This document shows positions 1 through 4,754 of a stretch of 34,414 bases of DNA, piece after piece; the stretch's first letter is position 1, and every line of letters begins with the position of its first letter. The stretch comes from Gammaproteobacteria bacterium (GTDB lineage Bacteria > Pseudomonadota > Gammaproteobacteria > S144-34), in NCBI GenBank assembly GCA_026989495.1, contig JALSJE010000008.1:1-34414 (forward strand), read 5' to 3'. The position numbers and the translations under genes are program-made. Under the pieces are notes generated by a model. It worked only from the letters and a program-made list of their open reading frames with translations, had not been told where the DNA came from and searched no databases.

Positions 1-1074
1 GTCGGCGGGGTTGGGGTTGCTCTGCGAACCGGGCAGAGCACCTCCGTCAGTCCCAGAGAAAATCATGCCTTTGGCGCGAATGTACTCTGCACCGCCGCGC
101 CACTTGCCTTTACGGTAGGTGAGCCCGAACCCCCAACGTGTTCGATCATATTCCCCAGGGTTTTCCTTCGTCAGGGTACGCTTGCCGTCCTGGTACCACA
201 CGAAGAGCTTGAGACCCTGGTAGCGGGCCCCGCGCGGGCCGTGATGGTCCGCCGACCAGGAGGGCGGAGCGAGGTGCGCGCCCGAGGGGAACGGGCTCTT
301 GCCCGGGAGCAGGAGCTCCGACGCCCAGTAGAGATAGAGCTCGCGGTTGTCGTCGTTGTCACCGCGGGTGATGCCGTTGCCGTTGCCGATCATCACGGCG
401 TAAGTGTGCTCCCAGCTCCCGGTGGTGAACCAGTCGAAGAGCTGGATGCCGATGTCGCGGAAGGCGCTGACCGGCCCGTTAGGCCGGTTCACGAAGTCAC
501 CTGGAGCGTCCTGGGACCCGTCCCCGTCGAAGAAGCGCTCCAGCAGGAGCTGGTTGGTGGCGTTGGTGAAGTTGATGTAGTCGAAGACGTGGATGGCTCG
601 CAGGCCCTCGTCCGCGCCCGGCGTCTTGAACTGGCCCACCCGGATGCGCAGCCCCTTGATGTGGTTCAGGGTCACGCTCGCGTCGGTGATCTTCAGGCTG
701 CCGCCACCCTGGCGGGTGATCCCGTTGTTGCCGGACTCGACGAGGAAGAAATAGTTGACCTTGCTGTCGAGCGGGAAACCGGTGCCGCGCACGCCGAAGC
801 GGGCGCGGATGATGTTGAAGCCCGATTCGGACCTGAGGTCCGGGCGGACCTGGTTGAAGATCGCCCGCTGCCCGGCCCAAGGCCCCGCCTGAATGGGCGT
901 GCCGTCGGTCTGCTGATACTCGGGCTGGATGAAGCCCCAGACGCGGGCGCGCGCGGCCGCCCCTGGCGGCTCGGTGCCCTGCATCTTGAGCCAGTTGACG
1001 GCATGGGCCTGTCCGGCCGCCGCCATCCCCCCCAGGCACGCGGCTGCGAGCGCCGTCATACGGAATCGCTTCAT
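1..1074 (-). CDS. Outer-membrane porin, phosphate-selective porin O/P-like (3' end truncated by window edge)
   Basis: Minus-strand reading gives MKRFRMTALAAACLGGMAAAGQAHAVNWLKMQG... (signal peptide) then ...FNIIRARFGVRGTGFPLDSKVNYFFLVESG...LRIRVGQFKTPGADEGLRAIHVFDYINFTNATNQLL..., typical of Porin_O_P-like beta barrels; frame open to position 1. Confidence 0.75.
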   Translation of the reverse strand, partial: MKRFRMTALAAACLGGMAAAGQAHAVNWLKMQGTEPPGAAARARVWGFIQPEYQQTDGTPIQAGPWAGQRAIFNQVRPDLRSESGFNIIRARFGVRGTGFPLDSKVNYFFLVESGNNGITRQGGGSLKITDASVTLNHIKGLRIRVGQFKTPGADEGLRAIHVFDYINFTNATNQLLLERFFDGDGSQDAPGDFVNRPNGPVSAFRDIGIQLFDWFTTGSWEHTYAVMIGNGNGITRGDNDDNRELYLYWASELLLPGKSPFPSGAHLAPPSWSADHHGPRGARYQGLKLFVWYQDGKRTLTKENPGEYDRTRWGFGLTYRKGKWRGGAEYIRAKGMIFSGTDGGALPGSQSNPNPAD

Positions 1075-1123
1075 GTCCACTCCTCCCTCGGCATGCTGAA
1101 CAGGTTCGGTCGTCGCACCGAAG

Positions 1124-1570
1124 TCAGGGCTTGACCAGGATGTAGCCCTTCTGCACGAGCTCGATGATGCGCGCCACGCCTGCACTCACGCGTGTGGCCT
1201 GCGGCACCAGCTCTGGCTCGGCGCCGAGCTTCTTGGTCATCTTGCGCATGGTGTTGTTGCAGGCGGCGAAGCGCACGCCGTTGTCGGCGAGCCCTTTCAC
1301 GCGCCCGCGGTTGATGTTGTCGGCGAACAGCAGCCGAAGCCCGGGTCCGAAGGCGACGATCTCGATGTCCAGCCTGTCTGGCCCATAGTGCTTCAGAAGG
1401 TTGTTGGCCACGTTGAGCACCAGCGTCTGCTTGCCAGGCTGAGGGTCGCTGATCTGGAGCACCACCTTGACGTCGGCGAACGGCTTCTCCTCCGCCGCGG
1501 TGGCCACCTGCCCCAGCCCCGCGGCGAGCGGCGCGAGGGCGACGAGCGCGAGCAGCTTTCTTCTGAGCAT
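1124..1570 (-). CDS. Secreted DsrE/DsrF-like family protein
   Basis: MLRRKLLALVALAPLAAGLGQVATAAEEKPFADVKVVLQISDPQPGKQTLVLNVANNLLKHYG...DIEIVAFGPGLRLL...VRFAACNNTM...LVPQATRVSAGVARIIELVQKGYILVKP; N-terminal signal peptide, DsrE-like fold pattern with single conserved Cys. Confidence 0.85.
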   Translation of the reverse strand: MLRRKLLALVALAPLAAGLGQVATAAEEKPFADVKVVLQISDPQPGKQTLVLNVANNLLKHYGPDRLDIEIVAFGPGLRLLFADNINRGRVKGLADNGVRFAACNNTMRKMTKKLGAEPELVPQATRVSAGVARIIELVQKGYILVKP

Positions 1571-1649
1571 GGAGACTCCTCCGTCCACGAACAGCACGAG
1601 ACGAAACCGGCAGGGCGCCCTGCGGCGCATCCCGCCGCTCATTGCTAGA

Positions 1650-1676
1650 AGACGCGCGAGCCCGGAGCCTTATTCC
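1650..1676 (-). promoter_or_regulatory. Candidate ECF-type promoter (-35 GGAATAA, N15, -10 CGTCT) for DsrE-porin unit
   Basis: Minus strand GGAATAAGGCTCCGGGCTCGCGCGTCT; same heptamer, same 15-nt spacer and same CGTCT as the plus-strand copy at 1733-1759. Confidence 0.6.
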
Positions 1677-1732
1677 CCTCCGGTGCGGATCTCCTGCCCG
1701 CCGGGGCCGGCCCTGGCGCACGTCGGGCGGGC

Positions 1733-1759
1733 GGAATAATATGGACGGCGGGCGCGTCT
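1733..1759 (+). promoter_or_regulatory. Candidate ECF-type promoter (-35 GGAATAA, N15, -10 CGTCT) for sigma/anti-sigma unit
   Basis: Plus strand GGAATAATATGGACGGCGGGCGCGTCT, about 110 nt upstream of the ECF sigma start. Confidence 0.6.
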
Positions 1760-1869
1760 CAAATGTCGGGAGAGGTGCGGGAGGCGCCGGCGCCCCCGAC
1801 CCAGGGACGGGACGAGACCACAACATGCAGAACCACCGGCAGGTGGCGCGCGGGGAAGGAGGAGCAGCG

Positions 1870-2454
1870 ATGGGTCCCGTCGAGCGGCTGCGCCGGATTC
1901 GCGCCGTGCGCCGGCATCTGGAACGCCGGCGTGAAACGCTCTACCGGCTCGCCTACGCCTGGTGCGACGATCCGTTCCTGGCCGACGACCTGGTGCAGCA
2001 GGCCGCGGCCAAGGCCCTGCAGAACGCGGGCCAGTTGCGCTGCGTGGAGCAGGTCGGACATTGGATGGTCCGCATCCTCTCCAACTGCTGGCGGGACCAC
2101 CTCCGGCGCTCGGGCCGCGAGACGGGCGGGGAGGCGGCCCGTGCCTGGGCCGAGTCGGCCTCGCCGGAAGGGGAGTGCGAGCGCGAGGCGACGGTGCGGC
2201 GGGTGCGTGCGGCGCTGGGGCGGCTCACGCCCGATCAGCGCCAGGTCGTCACTCTCGTCGACCTCGAGGGCTATTCCTATGCCGAGGCGGCAGAGGTCCT
2301 AGGGGTCCCCATCGGCACGGTGATGAGCCGCCTGTGCCGTGGGCGCAGGCTGCTGCGGCAGGCACTGCTGCAGGAGGAGACGCGTGACGAGGATGCGATA
2401 GGGGACACGGGGCGACGACGAAGTCGCGTCGCCGTGGTGCGACGGATCCGATAG
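1870..2454 (+). CDS. ECF-family RNA polymerase sigma factor
   Basis: MGPVERLRRIRAVRRHLERRRETLYRLAYAWCDDPFLADDLVQQAAAKALQN...LTPDQRQVVTLVDLEGYSYAEAAEVLGVPIGTVMSRLCRGRRLLRQAL; region 2 and region 4 motifs. Confidence 0.9.
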   Translation: MGPVERLRRIRAVRRHLERRRETLYRLAYAWCDDPFLADDLVQQAAAKALQNAGQLRCVEQVGHWMVRILSNCWRDHLRRSGRETGGEAARAWAESASPEGECEREATVRRVRAALGRLTPDQRQVVTLVDLEGYSYAEAAEVLGVPIGTVMSRLCRGRRLLRQALLQEETRDEDAIGDTGRRRSRVAVVRRIR

Positions 2455-2512
2455 ACGAAGATCCGCGCATCGGACAGCAGCGGCTCCAGACGGCACCAGG
2501 GAGACCACGACG

Positions 2513-3247
2513 ATGAGGCAGGAAGTCGCTTTCGACCGCGCTCCCTCGGAGGAGCGGCTGAACGCGTTCGTGGACGGCGAGCTCGATGGCGAGGACCACG
2601 CCCAGATGCAGCGGCTGGTCTGCGAGGACGCAGAGGTGGCCCGTGCCGTCTGTGAGCTGCGCACGGTCAAGGAGCTGGTTCGCTCGGCCTACGTGGGGGT
2701 CTGCCCCCCAGGTGGCCGCTCCTACCGCCTGCTCCCCGCGCCGCCCCGGCGCGGCATCCGCGGCATCGCCGCGGCGCTGGCCCTCCTCGCGGCGGGTGCC
2801 CTGGCTGGCTGGTTGGCGCGGGATGCCCTCGTGGAGCGCGAGATCAGCGGCCTGCAGGCGATCGCCCTCGCCCCGATGGCCGAGACGCGCCGGATCATAC
2901 TTCATGTCAGCTCGAACGACCCCGCCCGTTTCGAGGCAGCCCTCGACGACACCGAGCGTCTCCTGCGGGCCAGCCGCGACGAGGGGCGCGTGGTGCAGGT
3001 GGAGATCGTGGCCAATACCGAGGGCCTGAAGCTCCTGCGCATGGCCCATGCGCCTTACGTGGCGCGGTTGCGCGCCCTGGCCCGGCGCTACCACAACGTG
3101 CGCATCTTGGCGTGCAGCCGCACCATCGAGAAGTTCCGGCTCATGGGGGTCGACATCCGGCTCGTGCCTGAGGCGCAGGTGATACCCGGCGCCCTCGAGC
3201 GCATCGTGGACCGGCTCCAGCAGGGCTGGGTCTACATCAAGGTCTGA
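2513..3247 (+). CDS. Membrane anti-sigma-factor-like protein with C-terminal DsrE-like domain
   Basis: Immediately downstream of ECF sigma; N-terminal ERLNAFVDGELDGEDHAQMQRLVCEDAEVARAVCELRTVKELV resembles anti-sigma domains, one TM (GIAAALALLAAGALAGWLA), C-terminus aligns with the DsrE protein at 1124-1570. Confidence 0.75.
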   Translation: MRQEVAFDRAPSEERLNAFVDGELDGEDHAQMQRLVCEDAEVARAVCELRTVKELVRSAYVGVCPPGGRSYRLLPAPPRRGIRGIAAALALLAAGALAGWLARDALVEREISGLQAIALAPMAETRRIILHVSSNDPARFEAALDDTERLLRASRDEGRVVQVEIVANTEGLKLLRMAHAPYVARLRALARRYHNVRILACSRTIEKFRLMGVDIRLVPEAQVIPGALERIVDRLQQGWVYIKV

Positions 3248-3491: not shown

Positions 3492-3527
3492 GGAGGGTCT
3501 GAAAAATCGCGATTTTTCAGACCCTCC
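3492..3527. repeat. 36-bp perfect palindrome
   Basis: ggagggtctgaaaaatcg/cgatttttcagaccctcc. Confidence 0.95.
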
Positions 3528-3620
3528 CCGCGGCCACGGACGGCCGCGGGATGGCCCATGCACAGGGAAGTGCATGACGATACGACGAAAAATCGAAATG
3601 GAACGCGAAGCACCTCAGCG

Positions 3621-3649
3621 CTGATCAATCCGCGAAGCGGATTGATCAG
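3621..3649. repeat. Perfect 13-bp inverted repeat with 3-nt loop (hairpin)
   Basis: ctgatcaatccgc-gaa-gcggattgatcag. Confidence 0.95.
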
Positions 3650-3689
3650 AGTTTCCGGATGATAGGCCTTCCAGAAGGCTTCTCGCCCC

Positions 3690-4754
3690 TCAGGTGGGAT
3701 CGTGGGCGAGGATGGCGCGGATGCGGTCCTCGGTGAGGGGATGGGTGGAGAGCCAGCCGGGGAGGTCGGGGCAGCCGCCGTCGCCGCCGGCCGCTTTCCT
3801 GTCGCCGCCTTCGGCCGCGGGCGCGGCGCAGGCATTGGCCTCGATGCGCCCGAGGGCGCTGGCGAGCAGCGCGGGTTCCAGGCCCTCGGCACGCAGGAGC
3901 CGCACGGCCCAGGCGTCGGCCTCGCGCTCCATGGCGCGCGAGTAGCCGAGCTCGACGAGCATCACGGGGAGCGAGGCGAGCAGCCCCGTCACGCCCGACA
4001 GGTCGCCCGCGAGCATGAACACCGCCGTGGTCAGGATGCCGTGCTGCAGGGTCTCCCGCAGGGCGTGGCGGTGGGCGAGGTGGCCGAGCTCGTGGGCGGC
4101 GACGGCCAGCACCTGCCCGTCGCCGTCCAGGATCTCCACCAGCCGGTCGGTAAGGACGATGTCGCCGGAGGGCAGCGCGAAGGCGTTGGCCGTCCCGCCC
4201 ATGCGCCGGAAGCGCACGCGCACCGTGTAGCCCGGCGCGTGGCGGGCGGCGAGCGCCTCGATGCGGGCGGCCAGCGCCGCGCGGCGGCCGGGGTCGAGGC
4301 GGCTCGGGGCGAACAGGCGCCCGTCCATCCAGCGCAGCGCCTCGCGGCCGCTCGCGGCGAGCAGCTCGGGCGGCAGCCGCTCGGCGGCGGCGCGGGCCAC
4401 GGCCGGCACGCCCCAGCGCACCGCCCCGTAGACGGCGGCGGCGGTGACGAGCAGCGCGGCGAGCGCCCAGGGCAGGCGCGACTCCAGCCGCCGGACGAAG
4501 GCCGTCCGCCGCGGCAGCAGCGCGGCGAGCCCCGGCGTCTCGGGCGCCTCGAACAGGCCGCCGCCGGGAAAGCGCACGAGCCAGGGGGTGCCGCCCACGC
4601 CGGGGGTGACCTCCAGGGCGTCCACCGCGGCGGGCCCAGCGAGCAGGGCGCCGTGGCCGTCGCGCACGCTCCAGCGGTCCGCCTCGCGCTCGAGCCAGGC
4701 GGGGAGGCCGCGGGTGCCGCGGCCGTCGAGGAAGCGCCCGTCGGCGACGCGCAC
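3690..4754 (-). CDS. M48-family metallopeptidase, membrane associated
   Basis: HELGHLAHRHALRETLQHGILTTAVF (HExxH), ...GYSRAMEREADAWAVRLL, upstream TM LPWALAALLVTAAAVYGAV. Confidence 0.9.
   Translation of the reverse strand: MRVADGRFLDGRGTRGLPAWLEREADRWSVRDGHGALLAGPAAVDALEVTPGVGGTPWLVRFPGGGLFEAPETPGLAALLPRRTAFVRRLESRLPWALAALLVTAAAVYGAVRWGVPAVARAAAERLPPELLAASGREALRWMDGRLFAPSRLDPGRRAALAARIEALAARHAPGYTVRVRFRRMGGTANAFALPSGDIVLTDRLVEILDGDGQVLAVAAHELGHLAHRHALRETLQHGILTTAVFMLAGDLSGVTGLLASLPVMLVELGYSRAMEREADAWAVRLLRAEGLEPALLASALGRIEANACAAPAAEGGDRKAAGGDGGCPDLPGWLSTHPLTEDRIRAILAHDPT

Follow-up and report, generated by a model that had tools for sequence, protein, structure and literature searches.

Among described regulators, the closest to the locus studied here are the extracytoplasmic function (ECF) sigma factors of group ECF26 and their anti-sigma partners, namely RpoE1/EcfR1, RpoE4/EcfR4 and RpoE6/EcfR6 of Sinorhizobium meliloti and SigE of Starkeya novella. 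RpoE6 belongs to ECF26 (PMC6180224), and RpoE1 and RpoE4 have been tied to sulfur metabolism (PMC3511301). The promoter consensus of the group has been given as GGAATA / GT, with GGAATAA-N15-CGTCTC at rpoE4 (PMC6180224), and as GGAAT / CGTC (PMC6527743). We analysed a 34,414-nt stretch of a gammaproteobacterial contig (JALSJE010000008.1; the whole stretch is called the window below), one end of which encodes an ECF sigma factor and a membrane anti-sigma-like protein, divergent from genes for a secreted DsrE-family protein and an outer-membrane porin. Like the ECF26 pairs, this module combines a related sigma factor with an anti-sigma of one transmembrane helix and similar N-terminus, and it has the autoregulation-type promoter GGAATA..CGTC (PMC6180224, PMC6527743). 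Its periplasmic half is a DsrE domain, whereas EcfR proteins are reported to have a C-terminus resembling RsiW (PMC6180224). Its neighbours are a secreted DsrE, a Porin_O_P porin or sox genes, whereas those of the ECF26 pairs are sorT or a serine protease, and unlike the compared pairs it occurs in Gammaproteobacteria. The module probably serves sulfur oxidation as a dedicated sigma/anti-sigma switch of ECF26-like type, in which the DsrE domain would read sulfur on a single cysteine, C201.

The DsrE-family carriers (MTH1491, DsrEFH, TusBCD and DsrE3A) share with the proteins described here their fold and a conserved cysteine at a strand end. To our knowledge, the known DsrE and Tus carriers are cytoplasmic, whereas the DsrE proteins here are exported or membrane-tethered, and one of the domains is joined to an anti-sigma module. 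DsrE3A of Metallosphaera cuprina binds thiosulfate via its conserved cysteine (PMC4175335). Sulfur-responsive control of thiosulfate oxidation, as proposed here, has been described for SoxR/SoxT1B of Hyphomicrobium denitrificans (PMC10451225, PMC11582611); there, SoxR is an ArsR-type repressor in the cytoplasm that receives its input from a YeeE-like membrane protein, whereas the module here has a membrane-spanning anti-sigma whose periplasmic domain resembles a sulfur carrier.

The anti-sigma-like protein carries a DsrE domain with one invariant cysteine

An earlier note on this DNA, made from the sequence alone, had described the second gene of the sigma operon as a one-helix anti-sigma-like protein ending in a DsrE-like domain; the family profile, hhalign and Foldseek all upheld the DsrE-like end. 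Taken as a single sequence, the window protein gave no DsrE match in Pfam; PF02635 was detected in 5 of 12 members of its family (best 1e-6), and the family profile matched the Protein Data Bank entries for MTH1491 (1l1s, E=1e-19) and ST0148 (2pd2, E=9e-11). AlphaFold2 modelled the C-terminal half with a predicted local distance difference test score (pLDDT) mostly of 76-88, falling to 69 near residue 175, and Foldseek of the model returned 1l1s (target TM 0.86), the same structure as the profile search. BLASTP aligned this half with the adjacent secreted DsrE at 28% identity (E=1e-12), and hhalign of the two families gave 99.8%. Judged from these sequences, the C-terminal domain of the anti-sigma is a paralogue of the secreted DsrE.

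The earlier note's signal-peptide-bearing DsrE was likewise recovered, with a signal-peptide-like N-terminus. PF02635 fell just under its cut-off in the window protein (20.5 vs 22.7 bits) and was detected in 12 of 13 relatives; AlphaFold2 gave a core pLDDT above 90 and Foldseek again 1l1s (target TM 0.94). A DsrEFH/TusBCD-type heterotrimer was not matched, as a single secreted DsrE stands beside the sigma gene and the local gene set holds no F or H partners.

Across 64 anti-sigmas, C201 and W239 were the sole fully invariant residues (64/64 each), followed by G171 and Y241 (63/64 each). Every member had exactly one cysteine beyond residue 120. Its aligned counterpart in the secreted DsrE proteins was likewise a cysteine, invariant (52/52) and the sole one of the mature part in 48. 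Because a lone sensor cysteine cannot form an internal disulfide, the likely chemistry is sulfur modification or an intermolecular bond. At the N-terminus, Pfam gave a sub-threshold zf-HC2 match (residues 13-33). The zinc-binding anti-sigma (ZAS) reading was rejected, as the zinc motif HxxxCxxC was found in none of the 64 members. The protein would have a cysteine-based anti-sigma logic in common with the zinc-binding anti-sigmas RsrA and ChrR; unlike them, it lacks that motif and has its conserved cysteine in the periplasmic half.

A four-gene set conserved in Gammaproteobacteria

We searched 370 gammaproteobacterial genomes with a 12-member anti-sigma alignment and counted by hand the matches spanning both domains. 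The fusion was carried by 68 genomes, 67 with a full-length protein and one with a contig-edge fragment. A search of public contigs added one related locus (L031), on a metagenome-assembled contig of a gammaproteobacterium. We laid out 62 loci, comprising 60 together with the window and L031. Of these, 54 had a called sigma gene, 46 a DsrE gene and 37 a homologous porin, and 28 had the complete set of four; the counts are minima, since the set is interrupted by the contig end at several loci and genes were called mechanically. The usual order was divergent (porin< DsrE< sigma> anti-sigma>), and a variant had sigma, anti-sigma and DsrE as one operon. By eye, the flanking genes varied among loci (e.g. 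groEL, pilT-like and purine biosynthesis genes), so the four-gene set itself is the conserved unit. The arrangement recurs in dozens of unrelated loci from many families, which is beyond chance, and the neighbourhood pictured in the earlier note is thus a recurrent one. At L086 and L093, the sigma/anti-sigma pair is present twice in tandem, flanked by porin and DsrE genes at one end and by a further DsrE gene at the other end.

Among 397 genomes across the phylum, no full fusion was found outside Gammaproteobacteria; in the other lineages, either the DsrE half or the anti-sigma half matched alone. A plasmid search for DsrE anti-sigmas returned only DsrE-domain matches from Azospirillum and no fusions.

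Probable ECF26 kinship and predicted promoters

The sigma factor passed the Pfam cut-offs for Sigma70_r2 and Sigma70_r4_2, with no other sigma regions, and that for TIGR02937, in agreement with the ECF assignment of the earlier note. The closest named sigma found was the single pSymA ECF of S. meliloti (41% identity over 126 aa), and all 56 called sigmas of the loci matched this one named reference. We identified it as RpoE6 from the divergent serine protease and the published ecfR6 promoter sequence found there. As in ECF26, the window sigma is followed by a one-helix anti-sigma with an N-terminal anti-sigma domain. This helical domain, the putative sigma-binding part, resembles by eye that of EcfR6, with the pattern SDE-L-xx-F-x-DGELD. 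The pair is best read, on these similarities, as an ECF26-like system. TonB-dependent signalling of the FecR/FecA type was rejected, since no TonB receptor family was found among the recurrent neighbour genes read.

The 299-bp gap between the sigma and DsrE genes contains GGAATAA-N15-CGTC once per strand, which places the motif, a match to the ECF26 consensus (PMC6180224, PMC6527743), in both orientations of the divergent region. The looser pattern GGAATAA-N13..15-CGT had three matches in the 2.54-Mb genome, two of them inside this gap. The third (C48), considered as a grxD promoter, was rejected because it points away from grxD, and it was taken as chance. Over the 62 loci (662 kb), the looser pattern gave 60 sites, compared with 1-2 for each of four scrambled patterns. 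Of these sites, 44 had the expected orientation within fixed windows upstream of sigma or DsrE, and most of the others lay in the same gap at loci with an uncalled gene. The presence of a predicted ECF26-type promoter for each of the two divergent units supports the earlier suggestion that the sigma induces the DsrE-porin unit. Elsewhere, a gene for a Sulf_transp (TsuA/YeeE-like) transporter (L184, G080 C1:2297500-2300300) has the motif with a CGTCT -10 element 74 nt upstream, and GGAATAATTC..CGTCTT was found 110 nt upstream of a gene for a periplasmic PBP_like_2 solute-binding protein (L194, G119 C7:136000-138900). These are single motif matches in two genomes and are suggestive only.

Association with sulfur oxidation

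Among the 370 Gammaproteobacteria, 66 of the 68 carriers had soxB and 55 had dsrA. Either gene was found in 68/68 carriers compared with 99/302 non-carriers (Fisher p ~3e-28, with genomes that are not independent). By hand count, all of the ~40 carrier family groups had soxB or dsrA, compared with roughly 38 of 136 other groups. Of 60 carriers, 16 had GGAAT-N15..17-CGTC upstream of soxB in sense orientation, compared with 0 of 40 soxB-positive non-carriers (p=1.4e-4); the antisense motif was found at soxB in none of these genomes. The 16 carriers represent ~11 family groups and their spacers differ; this motif test is independent of the co-occurrence. The two lines of evidence support a sulfur cue; the earlier note had suggested a sulfur or redox cue.

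Sox genes also adjoin the module itself. One genome (G253) has the sigma/anti-sigma pair followed directly by soxX, soxY, soxZ, soxA and soxB in the same direction; another (G150) has the same series directly after the anti-sigma gene (sigma open reading frame uncalled), with all five Sox proteins above NCBIfam cut-offs. In a third (G161), soxY, soxZ, soxA and soxB lie a few kb off, together with a second DsrE gene. The window genome carries soxB along with two dsrA-like loci that score above the family cut-off. These two loci (G000 C113:15932-17137 and C10:14932-16116) could represent a paralogue, a second pathway or contamination.

At two loci (L074, 2786-4960, - strand; L089, 4494-6626, + strand), a 5'-nucleotidase/SoxB-like protein of 710-724 aa is encoded divergently from the sigma in place of the DsrE-porin unit, with the ECF motif in the intervening gap. 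Their identification as SoxB was rejected, as both fall far below the SoxB cut-off and are 5'-nucleotidase-family paralogues.

Layout of the window

The four open reading frames listed in the earlier note were confirmed in the window (Table 1). The porin start codon lies 49 nt downstream of the DsrE stop codon, close to the 50 nt first estimated. The porin is sub-threshold for Porin_O_P (PF07396) because the contig end cuts the gene; four full-length relatives pass (26.7-43.8 bits, cut-off 20.9).

Table 1. Positions of the sigma/anti-sigma module and its predicted promoters in the window
Feature	Position	Strand	Basis or remark
Porin_O_P-type outer-membrane porin	1..1074	-	ATG at 1074; 3' end lost at contig end
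Secreted DsrE-family protein, invariant Cys104	1124..1570	-	Pfam, alignment of relatives, AlphaFold2/Foldseek
Predicted ECF26-type promoter GGAATAA-N15-CGTC, DsrE-porin unit	1651..1676	-	Motif scan
Predicted ECF26-type promoter GGAATAA-N15-CGTC, sigma/anti-sigma operon (autoregulation)	1733..1758	+	Motif scan
ECF sigma factor, ECF26-like, 194 aa	1870..2454	+	Pfam, TIGR02937, similarity to RpoE6
Membrane anti-sigma-like protein, 244 aa	2513..3247	+	Profiles, BLASTP, hhalign, AlphaFold2/Foldseek
Parts of the anti-sigma (residues): N-terminal domain ~13-61; transmembrane helix ~85-105; DsrE domain ~122-244			C201 is the only Cys of the DsrE domain

Beyond the module, a 156-bp dispersed repeat occupies window positions 3500-3655. 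At least 41 near-full-length copies, 88-100% identical, were found in the 2.5-Mb genome, and the repeat is predicted to fold very strongly (z -6.3). In L031, a 76% copy (4486-4620) lies in the gap that separates the sigma gene from the anti-sigma gene.

Proposed mechanism and alternative explanations

We infer the following mechanism. The N-terminal domain of the anti-sigma would keep the sigma factor at the inner membrane, with the DsrE domain facing the periplasm. When reduced sulfur (thiosulfate, polysulfide or the sulfane sulfur handled by Sox/Dsr) is present, C201 would be modified to a persulfide or S-thiosulfonate, whether directly or with sulfur passed on by the secreted DsrE, and the sigma would be released. 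From the GGAATAA-N15-CGTC promoters, free sigma would then transcribe both the sigma/anti-sigma operon and, divergently, the DsrE-porin unit; soxB or a downstream soxXYZAB cluster would be further targets in some relatives. The porin may make the outer membrane more permeable to sulfur oxyanions, and the secreted DsrE may act as a periplasmic sulfur carrier and as either a co-sensor or a feedback element. We propose, tentatively and as somewhat short of probable, that the cysteine of the secreted DsrE hands sulfur to the anti-sigma DsrE, so that the cell reads periplasmic sulfur flux and adjusts DsrE, porin and Sox.

Several observations weigh against a dedicated sulfur switch. The porin or the secreted DsrE is missing from some loci, the anti-sigma domain is only a weak profile match, and the structure model of the anti-sigma was built from four sequences. 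The presence counts are not phylogenetically independent, and 44 of 60 carriers have no motif upstream of soxB. The soxB of the window genome also lacks it, so the predicted exact-match regulon there is this locus only. Finally, ECF26 members are not uniformly sulfur-related (PMC3511301).

Alternatively, the anti-sigma DsrE could pair with the secreted DsrE, as a hetero-oligomer or mixed disulfide, and not with free sulfur. In such negative feedback or carrier titration, the loading state or amount of secreted DsrE would be the signal, as in sigma-E systems that monitor a periplasmic client. This circuit would be suited by two paralogous domains that each have an invariant single cysteine at the matching position and are usually encoded by adjacent genes, and also by the lone cysteine, which rules out an intramolecular disulfide. 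However, 16 of the 62 loci, some cut by contig ends, had no secreted DsrE called nearby, and we consider titration possible though rather doubtful.

A response to sulfite or sulfur-intermediate stress, like that of S. meliloti RpoE1/RpoE4, is unlikely. Sulfite from sulfur oxidation would be the signal and the output protective, in keeping with the identical promoter consensus and related sigma (PMC3511301, PMC6527743); however, no sorT/sorAB-type gene was noticed beside the module, its outputs are predicted to be DsrE, porin and Sox, and the periplasmic domain of characterised ECF26 anti-sigmas differs.

The cysteine-based anti-sigmas RsrA and ChrR sense oxidants. By analogy, C201 could detect oxidants or electrophiles in a general thiol-redox or envelope-stress sensor, and the link to sulfur oxidisers would reflect lineage or lifestyle. 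The single reactive-type cysteine and the restriction of carriers to one class fit such a sensor. RsrA and ChrR, however, rely on the zinc motif lacking here, the motif precedes soxB in carriers only, and carriers span ~40 family groups by hand count, which together make a general redox sensor distinctly improbable. A degenerate or decoupled locus, in which the DsrE domain would be a fused relic with no sensing function and the porin would be tuned to another cue, agrees with the failure of Pfam to detect this domain in the window protein but is very hard to reconcile with the near-complete conservation of C201, W239, G171 and Y241 across many families.

Significance of the module

Pairs of ECF sigma and anti-sigma factors have been described before, as have ECF26 promoters and DsrE carriers. 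In the open-access papers searched, we found no anti-sigma that has a DsrE sensor domain and is linked to a secreted DsrE, a porin and Sox; the DsrE anti-sigma may already stand in ECF classification tables. The module is of high interest because the sensing of external sulfur by sulfur oxidisers has been described as poorly understood (PMC11582611). In many Gammaproteobacteria it supplies a specific candidate for the receptor, together with a defined promoter and a predicted output, and the question of sulfur sensing becomes testable by a reporter and one point mutation (C201S). If the proposal is true, the DsrE fold would have a signalling role, with a sulfur-carrier domain recruited as a periplasmic receptor.

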